A stretch of DNA of 62,349 nt. Source: a virus. Below the pieces are notes generated by a model. That model searched no databases and was not told where the DNA came from. It saw nothing but the letters and a program-made list of their open reading frames with translations. Shown piece after piece: positions 1,034-13,203 of this stretch (positions are counted from its first letter, which is position 1; every line of letters begins with the position of its first letter). The stretch is from IMG/VR virus record IMGVR_UViG_3300028388_005459, positions 1-62,349 of that record. One strand, given 5' to 3'. A program made the translations under genes and the position numbers.

Positions 1034-1168
1034 CTAGTGATATTTTTTCTTTTCCTCAAACCAAGATTTGGCAACCGCCTTCGACCACAAACGCAAGAGC
1101 GCATAGGACAAAGGCAAGAAAATCGCTAAGGAAAGAAGGATCAAAAGAAATTGTTCAGCAGGGTTCAT
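1034..1168 (-). CDS. small single-pass membrane protein, 44 aa
   Basis: The ATG at 1168 overlaps the stop of the upstream UvsY-like gene (TAATG) and follows AGAGGGGAAAA. Residues about 7-27 form one hydrophobic helix (FLLILLSLAIFLPLSYALL), followed by a basic, Trp-containing tail ending FEEKKKYH. A short, probably inner-membrane, protein co-translated with recombination genes is unexpected, and no function can be assigned. The gene is too short for usual length cut-offs. Confidence 0.6.
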   Translation of the reverse strand: MNPAEQFLLILLSLAIFLPLSYALLRLWSKAVAKSWFEEKKKYH

Positions 1169-1671
1169 TATTTTCCCCTCTTAAATTTTTCCCTCTGTTT
1201 TTTCTCGCCCTCCTTGACGGCGAGTTTGCGATTTTCAAAGCGTCGCCCGGGCTCTACGTCGACAGCCTCCGCAGGTCCGGCCCAAAATTGGCTCCTTAGA
1301 AGATCAACGGCGCCTTGCAACCCGGTTTTCTTTCTTCTCATAGCCTCCGTGAGTGCTTGAGCGTCGAGAAGCGCGCGACGCGCCTTGATTAATCGCTCTT
1401 GCCTTTCCTGGACCTCGTCGGAAGAGACAATGGCAGCGCTCACCGTCGATTCGGTCACTTTCACCAGATTGTATTCGCCGGGACGCTCGCGGATGTCAAG
1501 CTCGACTTTCGCCTTTGCGAGATCAAGCGCGGCCTTCGCCTTGTCGTATTTTTCTTGATGGGCGGCTTCGTCTTTGGCATAGTGGTAAAATTGCTGCGCG
1601 TAATTGAAACAGTCTTCATGCAGTGTCCAAGGGTCAATTCCGATGTCTCTTTTAAAATCGTGCTCACTCAT
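1168..1671 (-). CDS. UvsY-like recombination mediator
   Basis: This 167-residue protein probably helps load the RecA/UvsX recombinase onto ssDNA covered by the ssDNA-binding protein. The start is MSEHDFKRD at 1671 after AAAGGAGAATGAC. An in-frame upstream start at 1701 has no ribosome site. The layout resembles T4-type UvsY: an N-terminal acidic Leu/His segment, a long Lys/Ala-rich amphipathic helix (about residues 25-65), a second helix, and a conserved-looking end near a Gln-Phe-Trp. UvsX and the ssDNA-binding protein are encoded nearby. Similarity is by secondary-structure pattern and context, and a generic coiled-coil protein cannot be excluded. Confidence 0.5.
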   Translation of the reverse strand: MSEHDFKRDIGIDPWTLHEDCFNYAQQFYHYAKDEAAHQEKYDKAKAALDLAKAKVELDIRERPGEYNLVKVTESTVSAAIVSSDEVQERQERLIKARRALLDAQALTEAMRRKKTGLQGAVDLLRSQFWAGPAEAVDVEPGRRFENRKLAVKEGEKKQREKFKRGK

Positions 1672-1690
1672 GTCATTCTCCTTTAATCGT

Positions 1691-1717
1691 GTTATAGCCA
1701 AAAATTAAAAAAATCAA
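1691..1717 (-). promoter_or_regulatory. early promoter, TGGCTATAAC core
   Basis: The -10 element TATAAC occupies 1691-1696 and is preceded by TGGC, directly upstream of the UvsY-like gene. The region for the -35 is T-rich (TTGATT at 15 bp or TTTTGA at 17 bp). The same TGGCTATAAY core recurs before several minus-strand genes. Confidence 0.55.
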
Positions 1718-2658
1718 AAGGGGATTTGTTCGTCTTCAAGCGCTCGACGACAGCAAACAACAAGCCGATCTTTTGCCATGTCGAAAAAAGACGTTTCAGA
1801 GAAAACTTCCAAAACAATCTGCGCTTGCATGGACGGGTTGTCGTCTTTGAGAAGAACCGCGCGCATATATCCGCAGACAGCATTTTGAATACTTTTGGGG
1901 TCCTCTTTTTTCAACAGGTCCCGCACGAGAACGCGAACTTTTCCCCAGCTCTCTTTTCCAAGCAAAGCTCGACATAGATTGATTATTTCGGGAAGTTCGT
2001 CGAGAGTGTCGAATTTGTGGGTTATCATTTCGCGCTTGCTCATCCCGACGATATCGTTCAAAAGGACGAGCAACGTTCGCGGAGTCCCGTCCGCCGCATC
2101 AACGGCGCGTTTTATCGTCTTTTGTGGGATATCAATTTTCGCCTTCTCAGCCACAGAGCTTGCAAGATTTTCAAGATCCTTATCGTCGAGTTGAGATACT
2201 CGATATGTTTGGGCTCGATCTCGAAAGGTGGGCAAGAGCTTTGTTGGCTCTGTAGTGCAGCAGAAAAAGAAAACATGGGGAGGCGTATCTTCGAGACTCT
2301 TCAAAAGAGCATTCTGGAATTCTTTGTTGGTTTGATGGACCTCGTCGAGGATAAACGCCTGATTTCCAGTGTCGCTCAAAAGAGTTCGATATGGGAGGCG
2401 CTCGATCATGTCTCGCGCAGTCCCAATCCCACGATTGTCCGCCATGTCGATTTCAGTTTTGTTGCATTGGAAGGTCTCTGCCATGATTCTGGCAAGCGTC
2501 GTTTTCCCGCAGCCTTTTGGGCCATGAAAGAGATAGACTTGCGGAAGACTCTTCCCTTGCTCATAGCTTTGGATATGTCGCGTCAGAGCTTTGACCGTTG
2601 ACTCATTGCCAAAAACCTCATCAAGAGTTTTCGGCCGGTATTCAGTATGGAGTTTCAT
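1714..2658 (-). CDS. clamp loader AAA+ ATPase (DnaX/RFC-like)
   Basis: The 314-residue ATPase should load the phage sliding clamp (6859-7875) onto primed DNA. It opens with EYRPKTLDEVFGNE, the typical clamp-loader N-terminus. Walker A is GPKGCGKTT (residues 46-54), Walker B is FILDEVH near residue 105, and CCTTEP precedes a sensor-1 region. The C-terminal third is helical and less conserved, as expected for the collar domain. There is only one such gene and no separate delta subunit, so it may form a homo-oligomer or borrow host subunits. The ATG overlaps the upstream stop (TAATG). Confidence 0.85.
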   Translation of the reverse strand: MKLHTEYRPKTLDEVFGNESTVKALTRHIQSYEQGKSLPQVYLFHGPKGCGKTTLARIMAETFQCNKTEIDMADNRGIGTARDMIERLPYRTLLSDTGNQAFILDEVHQTNKEFQNALLKSLEDTPPHVFFFCCTTEPTKLLPTFRDRAQTYRVSQLDDKDLENLASSVAEKAKIDIPQKTIKRAVDAADGTPRTLLVLLNDIVGMSKREMITHKFDTLDELPEIINLCRALLGKESWGKVRVLVRDLLKKEDPKSIQNAVCGYMRAVLLKDDNPSMQAQIVLEVFSETSFFDMAKDRLVVCCRRALEDEQIPF

Positions 2659-3491
2659 TATACCCCTCCATTTTCTTTATTCGCGTTCCAATCTCGAGCC
2701 TTCACTTTAGCCCAAGTCTTCTCGATAGCGCTTTGAAAATGGATGTCGCTATATACGCAATGCCAGGCCAGCAATGCCATGATCGTTCGAACTGCGGTAA
2801 TTTTTTTGGATTCGTGATCATCGGGCCGGATTCCCTGTTCGCTCTTTAAATGCGAATGCGCGAGGCTGCCCGCTGCGATAACAAGCTGGGCGGGCAAATC
2901 GACTCGAGACAAATGGTCAAATTCTCCTGACGAGTCTTCGTCATATTTTGCCTCCAGAGCGTCGGGAGTGTCGCGAATGCAGCCAAAAAAATCGTATCCA
3001 TTGCGATTGCAATAATGGACCAGAAAGATCACGATATCTCCTACAGCGTCGATTTTTTCCTCCCTGTTCTCTTTCATGTCCGCAGAGAACAGTTCTCCAA
3101 TCTCTTCAAAGATGCCGAGCAATGGATGCCACGAAGGAGAATCGGGAAAATTCTTTTTGGCCCACGCCCGGTGCTCGACCTGAAGAGTCGTCATGGTTAA
3201 GCGCTCTGTCTTCACTTTTTCCCTTAGGAGGTTGTCTCCGCAAGAAAAGTCATGGCAACCGTGACAGTTCTGGATGCGGTAGAGTTCGCAAATCGCTTTA
3301 AAACCGCCGCTGAGGACTCTTCGATAATCATCCATCGGGATCGAGATTGTTTCCGGTTCAGAGCGTCCAACGTGGGCTGAGCAAGAGCAGCAAACCACCA
3401 TGCTCTCCACAAGCTCGAAAGTGTCTCCCTTGCAGTGTGGACATTGCATCGTCGCCTTAAACAAAGTTCGTGTTCGTTGTTTTTTCCCCAT
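2658..3491 (-). CDS. MazG-like NTP pyrophosphohydrolase with zinc ribbon
   Basis: The 277-residue protein has an N-terminal zinc ribbon (CPHC near 17-20, CCSC near 34-37) and a second Cys cluster (CHGCHDFSC). These are followed by an all-alpha MazG-type core: EEIGE and, about 13 residues on, EEKIDAVGD, the E-x-x-E and E-x-x-D metal-binding pairs. MazG proteins hydrolyse NTPs or dNTPs, and phage versions are thought to shape nucleotide or alarmone pools. It starts 8 nt after GGAGG and overlaps the clamp-loader start by 1 nt. The zinc module fused to MazG is unusual. Confidence 0.65.
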   Translation of the reverse strand: MGKKQRTRTLFKATMQCPHCKGDTFELVESMVVCCSCSAHVGRSEPETISIPMDDYRRVLSGGFKAICELYRIQNCHGCHDFSCGDNLLREKVKTERLTMTTLQVEHRAWAKKNFPDSPSWHPLLGIFEEIGELFSADMKENREEKIDAVGDIVIFLVHYCNRNGYDFFGCIRDTPDALEAKYDEDSSGEFDHLSRVDLPAQLVIAAGSLAHSHLKSEQGIRPDDHESKKITAVRTIMALLAWHCVYSDIHFQSAIEKTWAKVKARDWNANKENGGV

Positions 3492-3493
3492 CT

Positions 3494-6400
3494 TTAACCC
3501 TCCAACGTTTGAATGAAGTTTTCAACCCCTTCTCGAAAAAGGGGCAGGTTCTTTGTCTCGTTTCTCAATACTGCTGAGGGATGAATCCCCCAACAAACCC
3601 AAGCGTTAAGCCCGCTCAAATATTCTGTGGTTCCACACTTTTTCATGATGCCCCCTTTCTCTCCAGTCAGCGCCTGAAGAGGCACGTTTCCCAGCGCGAG
3701 AATGATGGGAGTGTCGAGATTCTCGATTTCTTCATCAAGCCAGCGAAAACAAGGGCTGATATGCTCGGGTTTTGGTGTCTTTGTTCGCGAAGGATAACAT
3801 CGGCAGGTGTTAGCAACATGAAAGTGTCTGCGCGCCCATCCATGGGCTTCGATTTCCTCCCAGAGTTTCTTGCCTGCCGGCCCTTTAAACGCCTTGCCTA
3901 TCTTGTCTTCCATCCGGCCAGGAGCCTCTCCCAAGATCATCGCGTTATAAATCCCCAAGTCAGTCATTATTGGCTTTCGACACTCCTCCCTCAAATCGCA
4001 CCGTTCACAAGACACCATATTGGCTCTGTAACGCCTCCTTTTTAAGGCCGGGGGTTCGATAGGGGCGGAGTCGGGAAAAGCGAAATCGAACAAGTCCCGC
4101 GCTTTCTGCGGGAGATTTCCTTCAGGATCAAACGCGTTTACTTCCAGCAGAATCTCCCGGACCTTTTTGTTTTTAATCTCTGCGCTCTTGTCGTCCTTGA
4201 AAAACCCTGCCCGCTTCGCTTGCTTAGAGACTACGCATTGGCTTGCTGTTGACTCTCCAATGCCTTTGATTTCGATGAATGGACAGACAAGCGTGTTGTC
4301 TTCAGCAGACCAAGCGAAGGGAGATGAGCGCCCAACTTTGGGCGGGAGAATCGAGAGCCCAAGCCTGCCGGCCTCTTTTAAAAGCTCGTCCTTTTGCGAT
4401 TCTCTTCCATAGCTGAGCGACGCGCAAATAAACTCCGTAGGATAATGCAGTTTGAGCCAAGCCGTCCAATAGCCAATAAGCGCGTATTCGACAGAATGCG
4501 CGCGGTTAAAACTGTAATGGGCATGGTTTTTGAGATCGTCCCAAAAGCGCTTCCCTTGCCCCAGTGTGATAAGATCGACGTTCTCCACGCCTTCTAAGAA
4601 CTTTTCTTTGTATGGTTCAAGCTCTTTTGGGTCTCGTTTTTTCGCGAGAATCTTTCGGATTTTATCTGCTTCGCTCAACGTCATACCCGCGAGCGTATGG
4701 AGGAATGTCATAACTTGCTCTTGATATACAATTAGGCCCAGAGTATCGCACGTAATCCTGTTATATTCTTCAGTCTCTCCATCCCAGCTTGCGCCGTGTC
4801 GTCTCTCAACATATTGCTCTGTTATCCCGCTATCTGCCGGACCTGGGCGGACAAGCGCGATTGCCGCAGCCATATCTTCGAAGTTTCGAGGCTTCAATTC
4901 TTGGGCAAGTTTCGTCATTGCCCAAGTTCCCCATTGAAAGACGCCAACAGTGTTTCCCTCGCTGAGCATGTCGAAAACGCGCATGTCGTTCAAAGGGAAA
5001 TGATTTGGCGCGTCTTTTGTAGAGCTTAGGCAAGGCGTGAGTTCTTCATTTTCCTCTCCTATTTTTCCAAAAAAGAAGGCATCGCTTTCAGGATGCCAAA
5101 AGAATCCTTCCCCGTGATTTCCCTCGATCAGTTCGAGACAAGCCGAAATTACGGAAAGAGTATTCAATCCCAGAATGTCAAGTTTAATCAACCCCATAAA
5201 TTCGGAATCTTCCATGTCCCAATTTATGAGAATCTCGTTTTTACGGCGACAGAGAACGCCCTTGCCAGTGTCTTCAATTTTTTCTGGAGATACGATTACT
5301 GCCGCGGCATGTTGACTCGCGTGGCGGATTTTTCCTTCCAGAACTGCGGCATGGCGAACGACGCGAGGCCATTTTTTGCGAAAGCTCTTTCCTTCTCCAT
5401 TCGCGTGATCTTCAACCGTCGTTCCCTTGTTGTCGTCCGTATATTCAATGCCTTTCGCGAATTCATCAACCTCGTCCAAAGGAACGTCGAACACGCGCGC
5501 AACGTCCCGAATAACCGCCTTCCCTTTCATTCGTCCAAATGTCGAGACGCCAGCCACGCATCCCTCTCCATAAGTCGATTCGAGATATTTTTTGACCAAG
5601 TCGCGCTTTCTGTCCTCTACGTCAATGTCGATATCTGGCCAATCAACTCGATCCGCTGAAATAAATCGCTCGAAAACAAGCCCATAACGAAGAGGGTCCA
5701 CTTGTGTAATCCCGAGACAGTATGCAACAAGAGAGCCGCCGACAGAACCCCGCCCTGGGCCAACTCGAATATTGTTCCGCCCGCACCATTCAATAAGATC
5801 AAGGACGATTAAGAAATATCGAGCGAACCCCTTTTCCTCTATAATTTTTAGTTCATGCTTTATCTGTCGGACATAATCGTCCTGTCCCATTTCATTGGGC
5901 AAGACATTTTCGAGCCCCTCCCAAACCTTTGTCTCGAGCTCCATTTGATCGACAGTCTGGACAGACTCGCTTGCCCAGCCTTTTGAATCGTGTTGAATCT
6001 TTCTTTTTATTGGAGGGGAAGGAAGAGAAATTGTCTGCTGTTTCAGTTCAAATTCTTCACAAGATTTCGCCACTTTTATCGTATTTCGCAATGCGCCTAA
6101 ATATTCGCTCTTGCCCCAAAAGCCTTGATCTTCAAAGGCGTCAACCATTTCCTTGTAGGATCGCAAATGGAGGCCGTGACATTGAAAGCGAAATCGCTCA
6201 GGATCTTTCCATCTCGCCTTCGTTTGAATGGCCATCAAAACCTCTTGACTTTCCCAATCCTCTTCAAGAATATAATGGCAGTCATTCGTCGCGAGCAAGG
6301 GCGCAAATTGCTTGACCTCATCGACCATCTTATTCACGATTTCTTGTGTCTCGAATTTGTGGGGCATAATTTCGAGATATGTAGGAATATTCGCGTCTAT

Positions 6401-6862
6401 CATTTCAAGGAAAAGGTCTGAAACGTCTTCAGACGCCCGAAGGAAAGTAGACGCGCAAGCAGTCCCGAAAATTAAGCCAGAGCTATGCTTGATATGTTCG
6501 CGAAGCATGGCCGCATCGATTCTTGGCTTATAATAAAAGCCTTCGAGATTCGCCTTTGAAAGCATCCGGCAGAGACTTTTCCATCCCTCTTCATTTTGGA
6601 CCCAAATCGTTACGTGCCCGCGAAATTCTTTTTGCTTATCGAAGCGATTGGATATTATATAGCTCTCGCAGCCAAAGATGGGGATGATCTCGTGTTCTTT
6701 ACAGGCCCTTTGAAAGCGAATATGCCCATCAATATTTCCATGATCCGTGCAGCCAAGATACTTGAAGCCAAGTTCTTGTGCGCGCTGCGCATATTCTTTT
6801 GCCGTCCCAAGCCCGTCCAAGAGCGAGTATTCTGTATGAAGATGGAGATGGCAGAAATTCAT
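3494..6862 (-). CDS. dnaE: DNA polymerase III alpha fused to family 4 UDG
   Basis: This 1122-residue replicative polymerase carries a C-terminal uracil-DNA glycosylase domain. Residues 1-250 are a PHP domain (HLHLHTEYSLLDG; CTDHGNIDG). The C-family palm has GPGRGSVGGS, PDIDID (D410, D412) and a third Asp in IKLDILG (D562). A finger and helix-hairpin-helix region follows. From about residue 945 comes a UDG of the [4Fe-4S] type: C952-x2-C955, GEAPG at 978-982, C1022 and C1038 (16 apart, the spacing of the family's iron-sulfur ligands) and a final HPSAVLRN motif. The polymerase is shorter than the roughly 1160-residue bacterial DnaE before the UDG is counted. It starts at 6862, overlapping the clamp stop (ATGA) after AAAGG. 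Confidence 0.9.
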   Translation of the reverse strand: MNFCHLHLHTEYSLLDGLGTAKEYAQRAQELGFKYLGCTDHGNIDGHIRFQRACKEHEIIPIFGCESYIISNRFDKQKEFRGHVTIWVQNEEGWKSLCRMLSKANLEGFYYKPRIDAAMLREHIKHSSGLIFGTACASTFLRASEDVSDLFLEMIDANIPTYLEIMPHKFETQEIVNKMVDEVKQFAPLLATNDCHYILEEDWESQEVLMAIQTKARWKDPERFRFQCHGLHLRSYKEMVDAFEDQGFWGKSEYLGALRNTIKVAKSCEEFELKQQTISLPSPPIKRKIQHDSKGWASESVQTVDQMELETKVWEGLENVLPNEMGQDDYVRQIKHELKIIEEKGFARYFLIVLDLIEWCGRNNIRVGPGRGSVGGSLVAYCLGITQVDPLRYGLVFERFISADRVDWPDIDIDVEDRKRDLVKKYLESTYGEGCVAGVSTFGRMKGKAVIRDVARVFDVPLDEVDEFAKGIEYTDDNKGTTVEDHANGEGKSFRKKWPRVVRHAAVLEGKIRHASQHAAAVIVSPEKIEDTGKGVLCRRKNEILINWDMEDSEFMGLIKLDILGLNTLSVISACLELIEGNHGEGFFWHPESDAFFFGKIGEENEELTPCLSSTKDAPNHFPLNDMRVFDMLSEGNTVGVFQWGTWAMTKLAQELKPRNFEDMAAAIALVRPGPADSGITEQYVERRHGASWDGETEEYNRITCDTLGLIVYQEQVMTFLHTLAGMTLSEADKIRKILAKKRDPKELEPYKEKFLEGVENVDLITLGQGKRFWDDLKNHAHYSFNRAHSVEYALIGYWTAWLKLHYPTEFICASLSYGRESQKDELLKEAGRLGLSILPPKVGRSSPFAWSAEDNTLVCPFIEIKGIGESTASQCVVSKQAKRAGFFKDDKSAEIKNKKVREILLEVNAFDPEGNLPQKARDLFDFAFPDSAPIEPPALKRRRYRANMVSCERCDLREECRKPIMTDLGIYNAMILGEAPGRMEDKIGKAFKGPAGKKLWEEIEAHGWARRHFHVANTCRCYPSRTKTPKPEHISPCFRWLDEEIENLDTPIILALGNVPLQALTGEKGGIMKKCGTTEYLSGLNAWVCWGIHPSAVLRNETKNLPLFREGVENFIQTLEG

Positions 6863-7875
6863 TTTTTTACCTTTACAACCATAGCCACAACGTGATCCCA
6901 ATTCTCGCCCTTAAGTCGAACAACATCATCCGAAAGGATCATGATCGTTCCCTTTGCAATCGCCTCTGCGAAAAACGAAGGCGAGATCAAAAAGCTAAAG
7001 CTCTCGCCTTTATAGCGCAGAGTCAAGGGCTCCTCAAACCACCCCGCAGCATTTTTTGCAGAGATGACCATTTCATCTTCGACAATTGAGACGGTTACAA
7101 AGTCGTCACTTTCGAAATCCTGCTTGCAGAAAATGGAGGCTCGAGCGAGAACGTCCGACAAGCCTTTTGGCACCACGACCCTCTTGCCTTTTATCTTTAC
7201 AAGGTGACTGATATCGGGATAAGTTGCTTGCAAAATTCGAGACGAAAAGATCGTTTCTTTGTCAGTCAAAAAGTGGACCCAACCCGCGTTCTTTTTGTCT
7301 GCGCTCATGTTTTTGATCTTATATTTTGCAAGCTGTTTCGCTGCTGTTTCCGGAAGCAAGAATTCAAAGGGCATCTTTTCTCCGCGGACTCTTGTCAACC
7401 TTACTCCATCGCATGCTTCGACAATTCCTGATCGAGTAACGTGGACACAAGTTAGCTCTGGACGATTATAATCTTGCCCGCAGGAAAATGAAGTGAAAGC
7501 AAGAGAATTGGAAAAATCTGAGGGCATTTTTTTCCAATTGTCGATATCGCTAAAGTGGTCGACGGGGAGCTTGATTTCTGGATCAAGATTGATTCCCGCC
7601 TTTCCTTTTCCCGCTCGAATTCTTAGTTCATTTCCCTTTGATTCAAACGAGATTTCGTCAGATTTGATTTTCGACAGGAACTGGAACAGAGTATCCGCGC
7701 TTACAGCGCCGTTGACTTTGCAGCCAGGCAGTGGGTGAGAAATCGCGATACGATCATTAAAGGTAATGACTGTTTCGTCAACAAACGCCACGCATGTCGT
7801 CTGTTCCAAAATTTCCTTATTCGCCAAGCCAGGCTTGACGATAGAAAGAGCCTCAACAAGAGCGTCTTTTTTCAT
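6859..7875 (-). CDS. dnaN: DNA polymerase sliding clamp (beta-like)
   Basis: The 338-residue protein has the length and three-repeat pattern of a bacterial beta clamp. It begins MKKDALVEALSIVKPGLA and has segments such as FLSKIKSDEISFESKG and LQATYPDISHLV, which match the clamp fold's repeated strands. It should tether the adjacent polymerase. It overlaps the polymerase start by 4 nt, and its own ATG overlaps the preceding stop by 4 nt, so clamp and polymerase are probably co-translated. Identification rests on pattern plus context. Confidence 0.8.
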   Translation of the reverse strand: MKKDALVEALSIVKPGLANKEILEQTTCVAFVDETVITFNDRIAISHPLPGCKVNGAVSADTLFQFLSKIKSDEISFESKGNELRIRAGKGKAGINLDPEIKLPVDHFSDIDNWKKMPSDFSNSLAFTSFSCGQDYNRPELTCVHVTRSGIVEACDGVRLTRVRGEKMPFEFLLPETAAKQLAKYKIKNMSADKKNAGWVHFLTDKETIFSSRILQATYPDISHLVKIKGKRVVVPKGLSDVLARASIFCKQDFESDDFVTVSIVEDEMVISAKNAAGWFEEPLTLRYKGESFSFLISPSFFAEAIAKGTIMILSDDVVRLKGENWDHVVAMVVKVKK

Positions 7876-8144: not shown

Positions 8145-8332
8145 TTTGTCTCCCTCCGTCTTTTCTTGATTTGGACAGCTTTAACCAAATTCTCTGTCCA
8201 TGGGTCTTTATAAAAAAAAGAGCCTAAACGTCGATAAGAGCCCTCGCATTTTTTGAGGGTAAAATTGGCAGCGTCAAGTTCGCTCTTAACATCTTTCATT
8301 TGCGGGAAGTTCCCCGCCAAATAAATTTTCAT
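8141..8332 (-). CDS. small protein next to DpdA, 63 aa
   Basis: The protein begins MKIYLAGNFPQMKD, reminiscent of the first strand and loop of nucleoside 2-deoxyribosyltransferase-like (Rossmann) proteins, then has YRRLGSFFYKD and a basic end. At 63 residues it is too short for a full enzyme fold. It overlaps the dpdA stop by 4 nt (ATGA), so it is translationally coupled to the DNA transglycosylase and may be an accessory to base exchange. That role is inference. Confidence 0.55.
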   Translation of the reverse strand: MKIYLAGNFPQMKDVKSELDAANFTLKKCEGSYRRLGSFFYKDPWTENLVKAVQIKKRRRETK

Positions 8333-9336
8333 ATGCCAAGCCCGCGCGTAGCACCTTCAAATCTGGCATCTTTGTAGGCGGGGAGTATTTTTTCAAAATC
8401 GATATAATACCAAATATTGAGCTCGTCTCGTCGCTTGTAATTGTTCCCCGCCCCCATTTCTTCAATTGTTTCGATAAACCTTTCTCCGGGCCGATTTGGG
8501 TCTTTTATCTTGACAAGGCGTTCATTTGCCTGGCGCTTATAGTCTGCGCTTTCCCATCGAAAAGATGATTTTCCAAATTGATATTCCTTACCCTTTTCTG
8601 CGAGATACGCATCCACAATTTCTCGCGTCGATTCGGGCAAATTTCGATAATGATCAGGATCTTTCTTTTTGTTTGGAGCGAAGAACGATTCCGCCGACAA
8701 GGTAATTTTTAGGGGCTCTTGCGTATAATCCCAGCTTCCATCTTTTGTTCGGGGGACATAAATCTGTCCATGCCGCCCGACAGTCACCCAAGATGCTGAG
8801 TCAACAGAATACCAGGGGTATCGCATCATGAGGCGGAATGAAGTGACTGCGAATCCATGAAACTTGACGATAGGCCGCCCATTTCTGTCGGTGACCCAAG
8901 ACATGCAGTTGTCGAGCCATGATCTCTTTTCCGCTGTCGTCTTGTCATTCGCGGGAGAAAGCCCGATATACTCGAACAAGTCAAGCATTTTTTCAAGCCA
9001 CTTAAAATTTTCGCCTTGATGGAATACGGGAATTAACTGATTTTTAGGAATCCCTGCGTCGACCATGCGCATAAGATTCTTCCATCCCTGTTTTGCCGCA
9101 GCTTCTATTATTTGTGGAGTCTCGGGATTGTATGGATGGGGTGAAACGCCTCGACTCTGACTTGTCGATCCACGATTTGTCGCTGCGCTTGGGATTACGT
9201 CGAGATTGACGAAATAATCCACAACATCGAGTCGATCAAGGCAGTATGAAATGTAATCGTCAAGCAAGATTTCGGCGCCAATATTCCAAGCAGAAAATGC
9301 CCCCGAATCCATAATCAATTCGATCTCTCTTGCCAC
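8329..9336 (-). CDS. dpdA: DpdA-like 7-deazaguanine DNA transglycosylase
   Basis: The 335-residue protein resembles phage DpdA, a tRNA-guanine-transglycosylase relative that swaps guanine in DNA for a 7-deazaguanine base. Visible features are MDSGAFSAW near the N-terminus (candidate catalytic Asp), FVNLDVIP (second Asp strand), PVFHQGENFKWL and VKFHGFAVTS, consistent with the TIM-barrel TGT core. I chose the GTG at 9336 because it follows AAAGGAG. The longer frame to a TTG at 9387 would run through the promoter TGGCTATAAT. A full set of preQ0/preQ1 synthesis genes lies just upstream, which supports a role in DNA modification over tRNA modification. Confidence 0.8.
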   Translation of the reverse strand: MAREIELIMDSGAFSAWNIGAEILLDDYISYCLDRLDVVDYFVNLDVIPSAATNRGSTSQSRGVSPHPYNPETPQIIEAAAKQGWKNLMRMVDAGIPKNQLIPVFHQGENFKWLEKMLDLFEYIGLSPANDKTTAEKRSWLDNCMSWVTDRNGRPIVKFHGFAVTSFRLMMRYPWYSVDSASWVTVGRHGQIYVPRTKDGSWDYTQEPLKITLSAESFFAPNKKKDPDHYRNLPESTREIVDAYLAEKGKEYQFGKSSFRWESADYKRQANERLVKIKDPNRPGERFIETIEEMGAGNNYKRRDELNIWYYIDFEKILPAYKDARFEGATRGLGI

Positions 9337-9370
9337 GATTTCTCCTTTCTTTGGGCTTGACTTTTTCTGC

Positions 9371-9398
9371 ATTATAGCCAAGCCCAAAGAAAGCGCAA
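9371..9398 (-). promoter_or_regulatory. promoter for dpdA, TTGCGC-16-TATAAT
   Basis: The -10 TATAAT is at 9371-9376 with TGGC before it, and TTGCGC at 9393-9398 is 16 bp upstream. It lies between queF and dpdA, so dpdA has its own promoter within the cassette. Confidence 0.65.
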
Positions 9399-9402
9399 AA
9401 AA

Positions 9403-9846
9403 TTATTCTGCCGCAACCGGATTTTTTGTATGCTCAGCCACAACAGTGATGAAAGTCCCGCCGCGGGCGTTGAATTTTCCTTCAACCTTCATCCATCGAG
9501 GAAGAGAGACATAAACCAAATCGCCCAAGATTTTGTTAACGATTTTTTCCATGAAGGCACCGTGCTGTCGATACGCGAAAAAATAAAGTTTAAGACTTTT
9601 GGATTCGATGCAATGTCGAAAAGGAATATACGTGATCTTGATTTCCCCAAAATCGGGTTGCCCGGTTTTCGGGCAAAGTGAAGTGAATTCGGGAAACGCG
9701 ATTTCAACAGTATATTTCGCATTCGGGCCCTCATGATGGTGGGGGCTGGGAAACACTTCGAGCATGTCGGGAGATGGCAAGGTGAGTTGATATTCTGTCT
9801 TCTCCGCGCCAAGTTTCGTCAATCCAGAAACGTTATTTTCAGACAT
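9403..9846 (-). CDS. queF: QueF, NADPH-dependent preQ0 reductase
   Basis: This enzyme reduces the nitrile of 7-cyano-7-deazaguanine (preQ0) to the aminomethyl group of preQ1. The 147-residue length fits the unimodular type. TSLCPKTGQPDFG contains the nucleophilic Cys that forms the thioimide with substrate. IESKSLKLY is the QueF signature motif that binds NADPH, and its presence argues against the archaeal amidinotransferase QueF-L. The start at 9846 follows GGAGGAAAT. It lies downstream of folE in the 7-deazaguanine cassette, so preQ1 is the predicted end product. Confidence 0.9.
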   Translation of the reverse strand: MSENNVSGLTKLGAEKTEYQLTLPSPDMLEVFPSPHHHEGPNAKYTVEIAFPEFTSLCPKTGQPDFGEIKITYIPFRHCIESKSLKLYFFAYRQHGAFMEKIVNKILGDLVYVSLPRWMKVEGKFNARGGTFITVVAEHTKNPVAAE

Positions 9847-9874
9847 ATTTCCTCCTGAAGGTTTGCGCCCGTTC

Positions 9875-10441
9875 TTATTGCCGCCGACCAATCAGGCTGA
9901 GAAACTCGTTTCTTGCCGTCGGGTCGGTCATAAACTCGCCCTGTAGGGACGACGTTACCATGATTGAATTCTGTTTTGACACTCCCCGCATTCGCATGCA
10001 AAGGTGCTGAGCCTCGACAACGCATGCCGCCCCTCGCGGCCCGAGATAGTCCATAAGCGTATCTGTCACTTGAGTTGTAAGCCTCTCCTGAATCTGCAAG
10101 CGACGGGAAAAAGCGTCGACAATGCGCGCGAGCTTTGAAGTCCCAAGGATTCTGCCATTTGGGATATACGCGACATGCGCGACACCAAAAAATGGGAGCA
10201 TGTGGTGTTCACAAGTCGAAAATACTTCAATGTCGCGCACAAGGACGAGTTCGTCATACCCGGAACTGTCGAACGTCTTCATGAGGCCAGAGATTGAGAC
10301 GCGATACCCAGAAAAGATTTCATCGCACCACGCGCGACGCATGCGCTCTGGCGTCCCTTTTAGCCCTTCCCGATCAGGATCTTCGCCAATCGATTCGATC
10401 AACGAGCGGACCCCCGCGTCAAAACGTCTCTCGTCCATCAT
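9875..10441 (-). CDS. folE: GTP cyclohydrolase I
   Basis: It converts GTP to 7,8-dihydroneopterin triphosphate, the first step to preQ0. The 188-residue protein shows the family core [18 protein letters not shown] (zinc Cys and His), [18 protein letters not shown] and the third zinc ligand region [10 protein letters not shown], with ENRERLT-like sequence replaced by QERLTTQV. It is complete at family length. Its ATG overlaps the queC stop by 4 nt. In this context it feeds queD, queE and queC rather than folate synthesis. Confidence 0.93.
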
Positions 10442-11133
10442 AATCGCATTGTCCTTTCCATTAAGGGGTCAGCATACCCCGCCTCCAAAAACCCGTTCAT
10501 GCGCAGCTTACAAGCGGGACATTCGAGGCATGGAGGCACGACGCCATTATAGCAAGTGTGCGAATGAGCAAGCGCTTCCCATGCCGGGTATCCTTGCGCG
10601 TCGAGTTCTTTGGCAAGCTGGACAGTCTCTGCCTTTGTCATATACATAAGGGGGGTGTGAATCGTGATTTCTTTGGCGAGAGCGAGAGACAAGGCGACCT
10701 GAGTGGCTTTGATGGTGTTGTCTCTGCAATCTGGGTATCCGGAAAAATCGGTCTGACATACGCCAGTGACGATGTTTGAGATATCGTGCTTATAAGCGTA
10801 TGCTGCGGCGAAGGTTAAAAGAGCGACATTGCGGCCAGGAAGAAACGAGGCGGGCAGGCTACCGACGCGATGCGCCGAAGAAATGTCACCGTCCCGTTGC
10901 ACCATTAACGAGTCTCCAATTTGGCTGAAAATCGTTCCCGCGTCGAGTTCCACGTGATACGCTTTCGCAAGCGCGGCGATAGTTTCTGCCGCCTCCATCT
11001 CCACGACATGCCGTTGGCCGTAATGCAGATTCAAGGAAACGATAGGCCCCTCAAATTCGCGTTTCGCCCAGAACAAACATGTCGTGGAGTCCTGTCCTCC
11101 AGATAGGAGGACGAGAGCTCCACTTCGCTTCAT
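10438..11133 (-). CDS. queC: QueC, preQ0 synthase
   Basis: The ATP-dependent enzyme converts 7-carboxy-7-deazaguanine plus ammonia to preQ0. The 231-residue protein has the PP-loop [12 protein letters not shown] at residues about 8-19 and the C-terminal zinc cluster [18 protein letters not shown]. There is no N-terminal glutamine amidotransferase-like (Gat) extension of the type linked to 2'-deoxyarchaeosine in other phages. The start at 11133 follows AAGGAG. Longer in-frame starts upstream lack a ribosome site. Confidence 0.93.
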
Positions 11134-11146
11134 GATCTGCTCCTTT

Positions 11147-11962
11147 TTAGAAGGTGATTTTGCCGTCGGAGGTTTTATGCGCGACTTTGCCAAATTTCGA
11201 GTATTTCGGGTTGAGAGAATCAGAAACGACGGTGCCAACGGTGGAGGGCGTTTCTTCCGGAAACTTCTCAATCACTTTCGCGACGAGATCCTTCCGGGTA
11301 TGCTCTCCCTCTTCGATCAGCGCCTTGATATAGTCGTTTCGATCAGACTTTCGGGCGCGACGAGTGCCGATATTTTCGCCCTTGCTCTTGCTCTTGCCTT
11401 TGCCTTTGCCGGCGCCCTTGCTCTTGCTCTTGCCCCTGCCGGCGCTGTCGTCTTCGCCCGAGGAGGCGTTCGTCGTCGATTCGACTTCGACTTTGACGCC
11501 CAAGACCTTGCGCAGGCTCGAAGGGACCTTCTTGCCCATTTGCGCAGCGACTTCCTTCAAAGCTGTTTGCGCGTCCTCGCTCAGGGTCTCCAAATCGTCT
11601 TCCGCCATGAATTTCTGGATGAAAGTGTCGAGATGGGACTTGATCTGCGCTTCCGCTTGTTTTTGATCCTCGAGTTTCCGGCTCTCGGGCTCGACGGTCA
11701 GGTTGGGTTCGATTTTGAAGGCCTTTGAAAGCTCGTCGGCGACCTTGTTCAAGCGCTTAACATTGTCCATAACGGCCTTCAGAGACGGCTTGCTTGCCTT
11801 CGCGCTGTTGTTGCTGCCATTCTCGGCCGGAGCGCTGTTTTTCGTCTTGTTTTTGGCGGTGTTGGTGGTTTGGCTCTTGCCCTTGCTCTGACTCTTGGTG
11901 CTGTTGTTGGTGGTTTGGCTCTTGCTCTTGCCTTTGTTCGTGTTGGTGGTTTGCTTCGCCAT
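11147..11962 (-). CDS. Lys/Ser-rich histone-like protein with wHTH-like end
   Basis: The 271-residue protein begins with about 45 residues of low-complexity Lys/Thr/Ser/Asn repeats. A helical acidic middle follows (about 60-150), then a second GKSKSKGAGKGKGKSKSK tract near 180-200. The last 65 residues look like a winged-helix module (DYIKALIEEGEHTRKDLVAK...TVGTVVSDSL...DGKITF). Such composition fits a non-specific DNA-binding or compaction protein, like eukaryotic H1-like tails. It has its own promoter (12008-12036) and interrupts the queE-queC gene order. The function is inferred only. Confidence 0.55.
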   Translation of the reverse strand: MAKQTTNTNKGKSKSQTTNNSTKSQSKGKSQTTNTAKNKTKNSAPAENGSNNSAKASKPSLKAVMDNVKRLNKVADELSKAFKIEPNLTVEPESRKLEDQKQAEAQIKSHLDTFIQKFMAEDDLETLSEDAQTALKEVAAQMGKKVPSSLRKVLGVKVEVESTTNASSGEDDSAGRGKSKSKGAGKGKGKSKSKGENIGTRRARKSDRNDYIKALIEEGEHTRKDLVAKVIEKFPEETPSTVGTVVSDSLNPKYSKFGKVAHKTSDGKITF

Positions 11963-12007
11963 TTTGTTTTCCTCCTTGTGTTGTGTGCGTTTTCGATCTT
12001 GGAAAAC

Positions 12008-12036
12008 ATTATAGCCAGATTTGGAGAATTTTGCAA
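12008..12036 (-). promoter_or_regulatory. promoter TTGCAA-17-TATAAT
   Basis: TTGCAA at 12031-12036 and TATAAT at 12008-12013 are 17 bp apart, with the recurring TGGC just before the -10. It is the best match to sigma70 among the TGGCTATAAY family and precedes the histone-like gene and, beyond it, queC, folE and queF. Confidence 0.75.
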
Positions 12037-12053
12037 GGGCTTTTTGGAAAAAA

Positions 12054-12800
12054 TTATGGAAAATTTATTCTCTTGTGAATTTGGACATTTAGAACCACGT
12101 CCGCAAGCCTCGAGCTTGCCCGCATCCAAGAAAACAGCTTTTGAGGCCCCAAATGGATGGGTGAAAACGCGAATCGTGGAAAAGAGCGCTGCCCAAGCTC
12201 GTTTTTGATGAGATCAAGCGCCTCGACAGCGCTATAAAAAGATTCCTGATCCCAGACCGGAATCTTGACCCAGTCCCCCTTCTCTCCATCAAGAATGTCC
12301 CATGTCGATTGAGCCCAGGGCAATGGAGCGTCTGTTTTATAGTCCACAATCAAGGACAAATTTTCCGCGCGCTCTTTGAGAACCTCCTTCAGCGTGGCGT
12401 TAAGCTCAACAGTGCCATTTGTTTCGATTGAAATATGGAACGGCGAGGACCTTTCGTCCTTGATTTGCTCTTGACTGTCGAGAGTGCGGTAAGTGACGCG
12501 AAGCGGGAGCTTTTCCAAAAGATCAAAAAGGCCCTCTTGTTGCATGAAGGGCTCTCCCCCCGTAATTGTCGCCTTTACGGTTCGCAGTTCAGCGACGACA
12601 TTATAAACGGAGGTGACGTAGCGCGACAGAGAATCCCGATTTTTGGCGTAGGGAGAATCGCAGTAAAAGCAATCGAGATTGCACCCGAAGAACCGGATAA
12701 ATGTCGATTGAGTTCCTTGCCCTTGGGGATTGACTTCTCCGTCAATCGAAACGAAAGGGGGTTCAGCGAGCACTAATGCGCCACAAGTTTCTGCTTCCAT
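12054..12800 (-). CDS. queE: QueE, 7-carboxy-7-deazaguanine synthase
   Basis: This radical SAM enzyme rearranges 6-carboxytetrahydropterin to 7-carboxy-7-deazaguanine. The 248-residue protein has FVSIDGEVNPQGQGTQSTF followed by FFGCNLDCFYCDS, the CxxxCxxC cluster motif of the family. TITGGEPFMQQEGL is the SAM-binding GGEP motif. The start at 12800 follows AAGGAG. It is separated from queD by only 1 nt, as expected for a pathway operon. Confidence 0.93.
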   Translation of the reverse strand: MEAETCGALVLAEPPFVSIDGEVNPQGQGTQSTFIRFFGCNLDCFYCDSPYAKNRDSLSRYVTSVYNVVAELRTVKATITGGEPFMQQEGLFDLLEKLPLRVTYRTLDSQEQIKDERSSPFHISIETNGTVELNATLKEVLKERAENLSLIVDYKTDAPLPWAQSTWDILDGEKGDWVKIPVWDQESFYSAVEALDLIKNELGQRSFPRFAFSPIHLGPQKLFSWMRASSRLADVVLNVQIHKRINFP

Positions 12801-12801
12801 A

Positions 12802-13203
12802 TTAGTTCTCCTTGATCCACTCTGCATAGCTTGTTGGTGTTTCGTAGAGTCGAACACCAAGAAGCCTTGCACTTGTAAAAGACAACACGGGAATCAGTTC
12901 GTCCCGAATCCACAGCACCATCCGCTCAGCAGTCGGCGAGACAACGTCGAAGGGCGGAATCGAGTTTATCAACTGATGATCGAGTTTGGTTTTGATCGCG
13001 TCTTCCATGATCTGTTTTAGATGCCCAAAATCCACAAGCATTCCAGTTGACGGATCAATTCGACCGCGCATGGCGATTTGAAGCCGGTAAGTATGTCCAT
13101 GAAGGTTGCTGCACTTGCCCTCGTGTTTTGGCAGATAATGCGCAGCGTCGAAAGTGATTTCCTTTACGACTACCACAATATCTCTATCAATCGGCGGACT
13201 CAT
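12802..13203 (-). CDS. queD: QueD, 6-carboxytetrahydropterin synthase
   Basis: It converts dihydroneopterin triphosphate to 6-carboxy-5,6,7,8-tetrahydropterin. The 133-residue protein has the family zinc site FDAAHYL...CSNLHGHTY (three His and a catalytic Cys), then DFGHLK and LDHQLIN, then a C-terminal ETPTSYAEW. It starts after AAGGAGATTATAG and overlaps the helicase gene end by 17 nt. Confidence 0.93.
   Translation of the reverse strand: MSPPIDRDIVVVVKEITFDAAHYLPKHEGKCSNLHGHTYRLQIAMRGRIDPSTGMLVDFGHLKQIMEDAIKTKLDHQLINSIPPFDVVSPTAERMVLWIRDELIPVLSFTSARLLGVRLYETPTSYAEWIKEN

Follow-up and report, generated by a model that had tools for sequence, protein, structure and literature searches.

The 62,349-nt stretch of viral DNA analyzed here, referred to as the window, carries a gene whose product is a C-family, DnaE-type DNA polymerase fused to a family-4-like iron-sulfur (Fe-S) uracil-DNA glycosylase (UDG). 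The feature is real and conserved, and the architecture itself is already known. What is new, judging from the residues of the UDG domains, is that such fusions exist in two states, near-intact in the group of sequences to which the window belongs and decayed in a set of isolate phages and in the IMG/VR contigs L053 and L060. The gene and its parts are located as follows:

3494..6862, minus strand: whole gene, DnaE-type Pol III alpha with C-terminal UDG (single ORF, Pfam, NCBIfam, structure model)
6365..6850, minus strand: PHP domain, residues 5-166 (Pfam, E-value 1e-33)
5168..5941, minus strand: Pol III alpha palm/thumb (DNA_pol3_alpha), residues 308-565 (Pfam, E-value 5e-79)
4580..5011, minus strand: fingers domain, residues 618-761 (Pfam, E-value 3e-41)
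4124..4360, minus strand: HhH region, residues 835-913 (Pfam HHH_6, E-value 3e-4, slightly under cutoff)
4088..4102, minus strand: possible sliding-clamp-binding peptide ARDLF, residues 921-925 (inspection of an alignment of 30 rows)
3497..4009, minus strand: Fe-S UDG domain, residues 952-1122 (Pfam, PDB matches, residue table, fold match)

The coordinates and residue numbers given in the first-pass annotation of this DNA were correct, the gene being on the minus strand. Its ORF runs unbroken from an ATG at position 6862 down to 3494 and encodes 1122 amino acids followed by a stop codon, in the domain order PHP, palm/thumb and fingers of Pol III, HhH and Fe-S UDG. No stop or frameshift separates the two parts. 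Relatives were gathered by scanning viral contigs twice and by searching with a profile in six frames, and the continuous fusion was found in 24 further IMG/VR contigs, in addition to one frameshifted copy (L006). This recurrence is a strong argument against an assembly error, and a chance joining of ORFs was rejected on the same ground.

The first-pass annotation had proposed a C-family polymerase followed by a UDG, and both profile searches and structure modeling agreed with it. The N-terminal part scored 733.9 bits with the NCBIfam DnaE model TIGR00594 (cutoff 434.35), and the catalytic palm aspartates D410, D412, and D562 are present and invariant in 30 aligned polymerases. The C-terminal part matched the Pfam UDG family PF03167 at residues 974-1110 with an E-value of 6e-26 and a score of 91.7 bits (cutoff 24.3). 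An AlphaFold model built from 30 phage sequences reached a pLDDT of 86.9 and a pTM of 0.77. In Foldseek comparisons the body of the model matched the DnaE crystal structures of Taq, Mtb, and E. coli (E-value 8e-65 to 2hpi), matches that also back the HhH region, while the tail matched the family-4 UDGs of Thermus, Thermotoga, and Sulfolobus (1ui1, E-value 4e-9; 1l9g, E-value 1e-8). The OB and tau-binding C-terminal (CTD) domains, which are typical for DnaE1 but not universal, gave no Pfam or NCBIfam match past residue 913 of the window polymerase, and the UDG domain occupies their usual site. The ARDLF peptide lies at the place of the internal clamp motif of DnaE, with the variants QSYF, KDLF, KELF, and KEYF in relatives, and may possibly bind a sliding clamp.

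Most of the residues expected of an active family-4 UDG are found in the window. The Fe-S cysteines are C952, C955, C1022, and C1038, the last pair being 16 residues apart. Motif 1 reads GEAPGRMED and includes both E979 (E41) and E985 (E47), the uracil pocket is made up of E979, A980, E985, F992, and N1018, and motif 2, HPSAVLRN, holds the catalytic H1094, equivalent to H155. At motif 3, on the other hand, the water-positioning asparagine of Thermus thermophilus (Tth) UDGa, N89, is replaced by T1027. Thus, the first-pass statement that all recognizable UDG features are present held for GEAPG, the four spaced cysteines, and HPSAVLRN, but not for the N89 position. As the loop around N89 is equally long in the window and in Tth UDGa, a misalignment at this position is unlikely. 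Searches with the window UDG sequence returned the PDB entries 1ui0 (1e-18) and 1l9g (7e-18). NCBIfam lists three UDG models for the window protein, each under its curated cutoff, and the family-4 model TIGR00758 reached 81.2 bits against 125.3. UdgX, whose hallmarks are a GEQPG motif and a KRRIH loop with a covalent histidine (PMC10359453), was also considered as an identity and rejected, since the window has GEAPG instead and shows no KRRIH loop insertion in the alignment.

The same pattern was seen across the 21 window-type fusions. All four cysteines are retained in every one of them, N80 and H155 in 20 each, E47 in 19, and E41 and F54 in 18 each, while 18 of the 21 have Ser or Thr at the N89 position, as against Asn in 19 of 22 sampled free UDGs. 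In Tth UDGa, k2/Km drops more than 2000-fold in H155S and only about 7-fold in N89A (PMC5387724), so a threonine at this position need not kill the activity. The UDG of the window group is therefore probably a retained, if slower, glycosylase, as far as its residues tell. The degenerate set consists of the isolate phages SSU5, nickie, hairong, and Rhizobium V1VFA-S and of the contigs L053 and L060. The catalytic histidine is lost in all six, and the cysteines are mostly lost. The UDG fold is still detectable after this decay, with an hhalign E-value of 5.5e-21 for the set as a whole.

Among isolate phages, this architecture occurs, with a UDG over the Pfam cutoff, in the Pseudomonas phages nickie and hairong and in Rhizobium phage V1VFA-S. 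Salmonella phage SSU5 shares it as well, with a UDG under the Pfam cutoff that was recovered by profile comparison (E-value 9e-9 for SSU5 alone). In GenBank all four fusions are labeled only 'DNA polymerase III alpha', and enterobacterial plasmids often carry SSU5-like polymerases, with 757 records at an identity of at least 60%. Other relatives (L007, L024, L032-L038, and L040) end directly past the HhH region and lack the UDG. No nucleotide similarity was found between the window and phage records. A scan of genome contigs for bacterial chromosomal DnaE-UDG proteins showed no fusion among the best 80 loci listed, and rare bacterial cases may exist.

The first-pass annotation knew of no C-family example of such a fusion; one had been described in 2013. 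Timinskas et al. (PMC3919608) reported DnaE homologs, from certain strains of Y. pestis and S. enterica, in which OB and CTD are replaced by a PF03167 UDG. They devoted a single sentence and one figure to this 'DnaEX' UDG variant, which they treated as an extra polymerase of bacterial genomes. No further paper on a C-family polymerase-UDG was found in the open-licence full-text literature, and the fusion goes unmentioned in a survey of bacterial polymerases from 2026 (PMC12926913). The window protein agrees with the 2013 definition in having C-family PHP, Pol3, and HhH domains and a PF03167 UDG in place of OB and CTD. When SSU5 is taken as an inferred stand-in for the Salmonella type, it differs in that the UDG and PHP of SSU5 are decayed, whereas both look intact in the window. 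Similarly, the polymerases of nickie, hairong, and V1VFA-S share with it the domain order, a C-terminal UDG over the Pfam cutoff, and the phage DnaE clade, but in these phages the catalytic histidine is replaced, the Fe-S cysteines are largely lost, and the PHP ligands are lost.

More distant likenesses are found outside the C family. As the first-pass annotation had pointed out, UDG fusions with A-family phage polymerases are known, for example in Pseudomonas phage PaBG; like the window protein, these (PaBG and MW202455/L010) combine a phage replicative polymerase with a family-4-type UDG, but the polymerase family is unrelated, the UDG is N-terminal, and it belongs to a separate UDG lineage that keeps N89. 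The free family-4 UDGs (Tth UDGa, 1ui0; T. maritima TM0511) resemble the window UDG in about 30% identity, the fold, the Fe-S ligands, and motifs 1 and 2, while the latter differs in being joined to a polymerase, in the change of N89 to Thr, and in scoring under the curated family-4 cutoff. Vaccinia D4 likewise places a UDG fold inside a viral replicase (PMC3946371), but it is a family-1 UDG and a separate subunit, linked via A20 to a B-family polymerase.

What was a one-sentence curiosity in 2013 thus becomes a defined and widespread lineage of phage replicases with two UDG states, one group having a probably competent uracil-removing domain and the others a decayed one. With both states occurring in nature, one can ask what a glycosylase is for in a replicase, the options being excision, sensing, and DNA binding. 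The lineage also shows that phage and plasmid entries annotated as 'DNA polymerase III alpha' conceal a second domain. If the UDG is active, the window protein would unite proofreading and uracil removal in a single C-family replicase chain.

In a quick tree of the polymerase core, the UDG-bearing phage enzymes and their UDG-less relatives form one clade with an SH-aLRT of 95, and the same clade was recovered in a careful mixture-model tree with a support of 90/89. The presence or absence of the UDG requires five changes on the larger polymerase tree set, a number compatible with one gain and four losses. In a tree of the UDG domains, a branch with 93% bootstrap support separates all C-family fusion UDGs from the A-family fusion UDGs and the free UDGs. 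One ancient fusion in the phage DnaE clade, followed by at least four losses, is the likely history from these trees; because the degenerate sequences are long-branched, the single origin is likely but short of proof.

The PHP domain of the window enzyme also looks intact. All nine metal-ligand positions are occupied (H7, H9, D16, H41, E66, H83, C136, D194, and H196, the last two sitting slightly past the end of the Pfam PHP match). These nine residues correspond to those that bind the proofreading trinuclear zinc center of Mtb DnaE1, a center that has been likened to endonuclease IV (PMC5636811). This correspondence suggests 3'-5' proofreading by the PHP site, so that the window enzyme may proofread on its own. 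By analogy, the site could conceivably also process abasic sites. The ligands are intact in nearly all relatives and are lost in SSU5, nickie, hairong, and Rhizobium.

The polymerase belongs to a minus-strand replication block in the order clamp, polymerase-UDG, MazG-like protein, clamp loader, and small protein:

6859..7875, minus strand: sliding clamp, polymerase processivity factor (phrog_947, E-value 1e-34)
2658..3491, minus strand: MazG-like nucleotide pyrophosphatase, directly downstream of the polymerase (phrog_715, E-value 2e-7)
1714..2658, minus strand: clamp loader ATPase (phrog_5846, E-value 1e-59)
1168..1701, minus strand: small conserved protein downstream, possibly a UvsY-like recombination mediator (occurrence near the polymerase in most relatives)

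The stop codon of the clamp gene overlaps the start of the polymerase gene, and many IMG/VR relatives have clamp and loader genes on either side of the polymerase.

The explanation that we lean towards, and consider somewhat probable, is that the gene encodes the phage's own proofreading replicase with a tethered, likely slow UDG that excises uracil near the fork. Coupling of uracil removal to the fork, as proposed in the first-pass annotation, is in our reading of the sequences the most likely purpose of the fusion. In this reading, the family-4-like Fe-S UDG stands in place of the OB and tau-binding domains at the C-terminus, the PHP site would proofread, and the phage clamp and clamp loader would replace tethering by the host tau. 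The UDG would recognize uracil in DNA close to the fork and excise it. The rate would probably be low, given that Thr stands here in place of the water-positioning Asn of Tth UDGa. The location of the gene in a clamp/polymerase/MazG-like/clamp-loader cluster speaks for a replicase. PF00692 dUTPase, Thy1, thymidylate synthase, and a second PF03167 UDG were all looked for in the window record and none was found; we count the lack of another UDG and of a dUTPase in favor of this explanation. Against it, harm could result if uracil were cut out of a template that is single-stranded at the fork, the change at N89 is almost clade-wide, and the window UDG stays under the NCBIfam family-4 cutoff. At least four losses of the UDG, together with its decay in the SSU5/nickie/Rhizobium and L053/L060 lines, show that not all members need excision.

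It is rather unlikely, yet deserves weight as the main rival, that the UDG fold has chiefly a non-catalytic role, binding DNA or aiding processivity in place of the lost OB domain, with excision being secondary. Such a role has a precedent in vaccinia D4/A20, which serve in the poxvirus polymerase holoenzyme (PMC3946371, PMC10253040). It is in line with the position of the UDG at the site of OB, with the replacement of the water-positioning Asn in most window-group members, and with the survival of the fold through catalytic decay in the six degenerate sequences. However, the near-full conservation of E41, E47, N80, H155, and the four cysteines in the window group is unexpected for a mere binding fold. 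Moreover, the phage encodes its own clamp, and several relatives stop directly after the HhH region with nothing substituted.

We regard as improbable a UDG that acts as a read-ahead sensor, binding template uracil and stalling the polymerase without excising. Archaeal B-family polymerases read ahead for uracil in this manner via their own uracil pocket, and the recognition residues E41, E47, F54, and N80 are better kept in the window group than the water-positioning Asn. The leaving-group histidine, which is needed more for catalysis than for binding, is nevertheless kept in 20 of 21, and we know of no UDG fusion with evidence of read-ahead.

A self-contained base-excision repair replicase, in which the UDG would remove uracil, the PHP would cut the abasic site, and the polymerase would refill, seems to us similarly doubtful. 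The PHP of bacterial PolX is AP-endonucleolytic. Intact PHP ligands go together with intact UDG residues in the window group, and the SSU5/nickie/Rhizobium group has lost the two sets alike. L053 and L060, however, keep the PHP with a decayed UDG, which makes the pairing suggestive only. Finally, a recent or accidental gene joining without joint function, which would suit the patchiness of the trait, with several close relatives lacking the UDG, and the independent adjacency of a free family-4 UDG and dnaE in contig L174, is very improbable and largely refuted by conservation, as the fusion is old and was kept across deep divergence (the 93% bootstrap branch and the 90/89 clade support).

A set of 7-deazaguanine genes is located upstream at 8329-13203 on the minus strand of the window, encoding DpdA-like, QueF-like, FolE, QueC, radical-SAM (probably QueE), and QueD-like PTPS proteins. 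The first-pass annotation had tentatively tied the UDG to 7-deazaguanine DNA. This tie was not supported, as QueC occurs in 8 of the 17 searched records with a UDG and in all three UDG-less relatives; several records are fragments, and the absence of QueC is thus weak evidence. A PF00692 dUTPase over the cutoff was present in one of 20 records searched, L053 (G036, 114562 bases), in which the fused UDG is decayed.

At the UDG junction, a strong Shine-Dalgarno-like AAGGAGG (4030-4050, minus strand) precedes the in-frame ATG of M949 by 15 nt. An internal start giving a free UDG was rejected, the spacing being long and relatives having no comparable start. The small protein at 1168-1701 stands beside the polymerase in most relatives, including the Rhizobium and nickie phages; in two relatives it matches the UvsY-like phrog_231, and the window copy matches families of unknown function only. 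In L174, an Acidobacteria MAG, the free family-4 UDG (2066-2929) lies directly upstream of dnaE (3194-6817) on the same strand, a possible parallel to the fusion. The UDG-less polymerase of L007 (5986-9567) contains a long insert after the LEGTIKAC... region with HN at its end, after which the frame resumes; this insert appears to be an intein.
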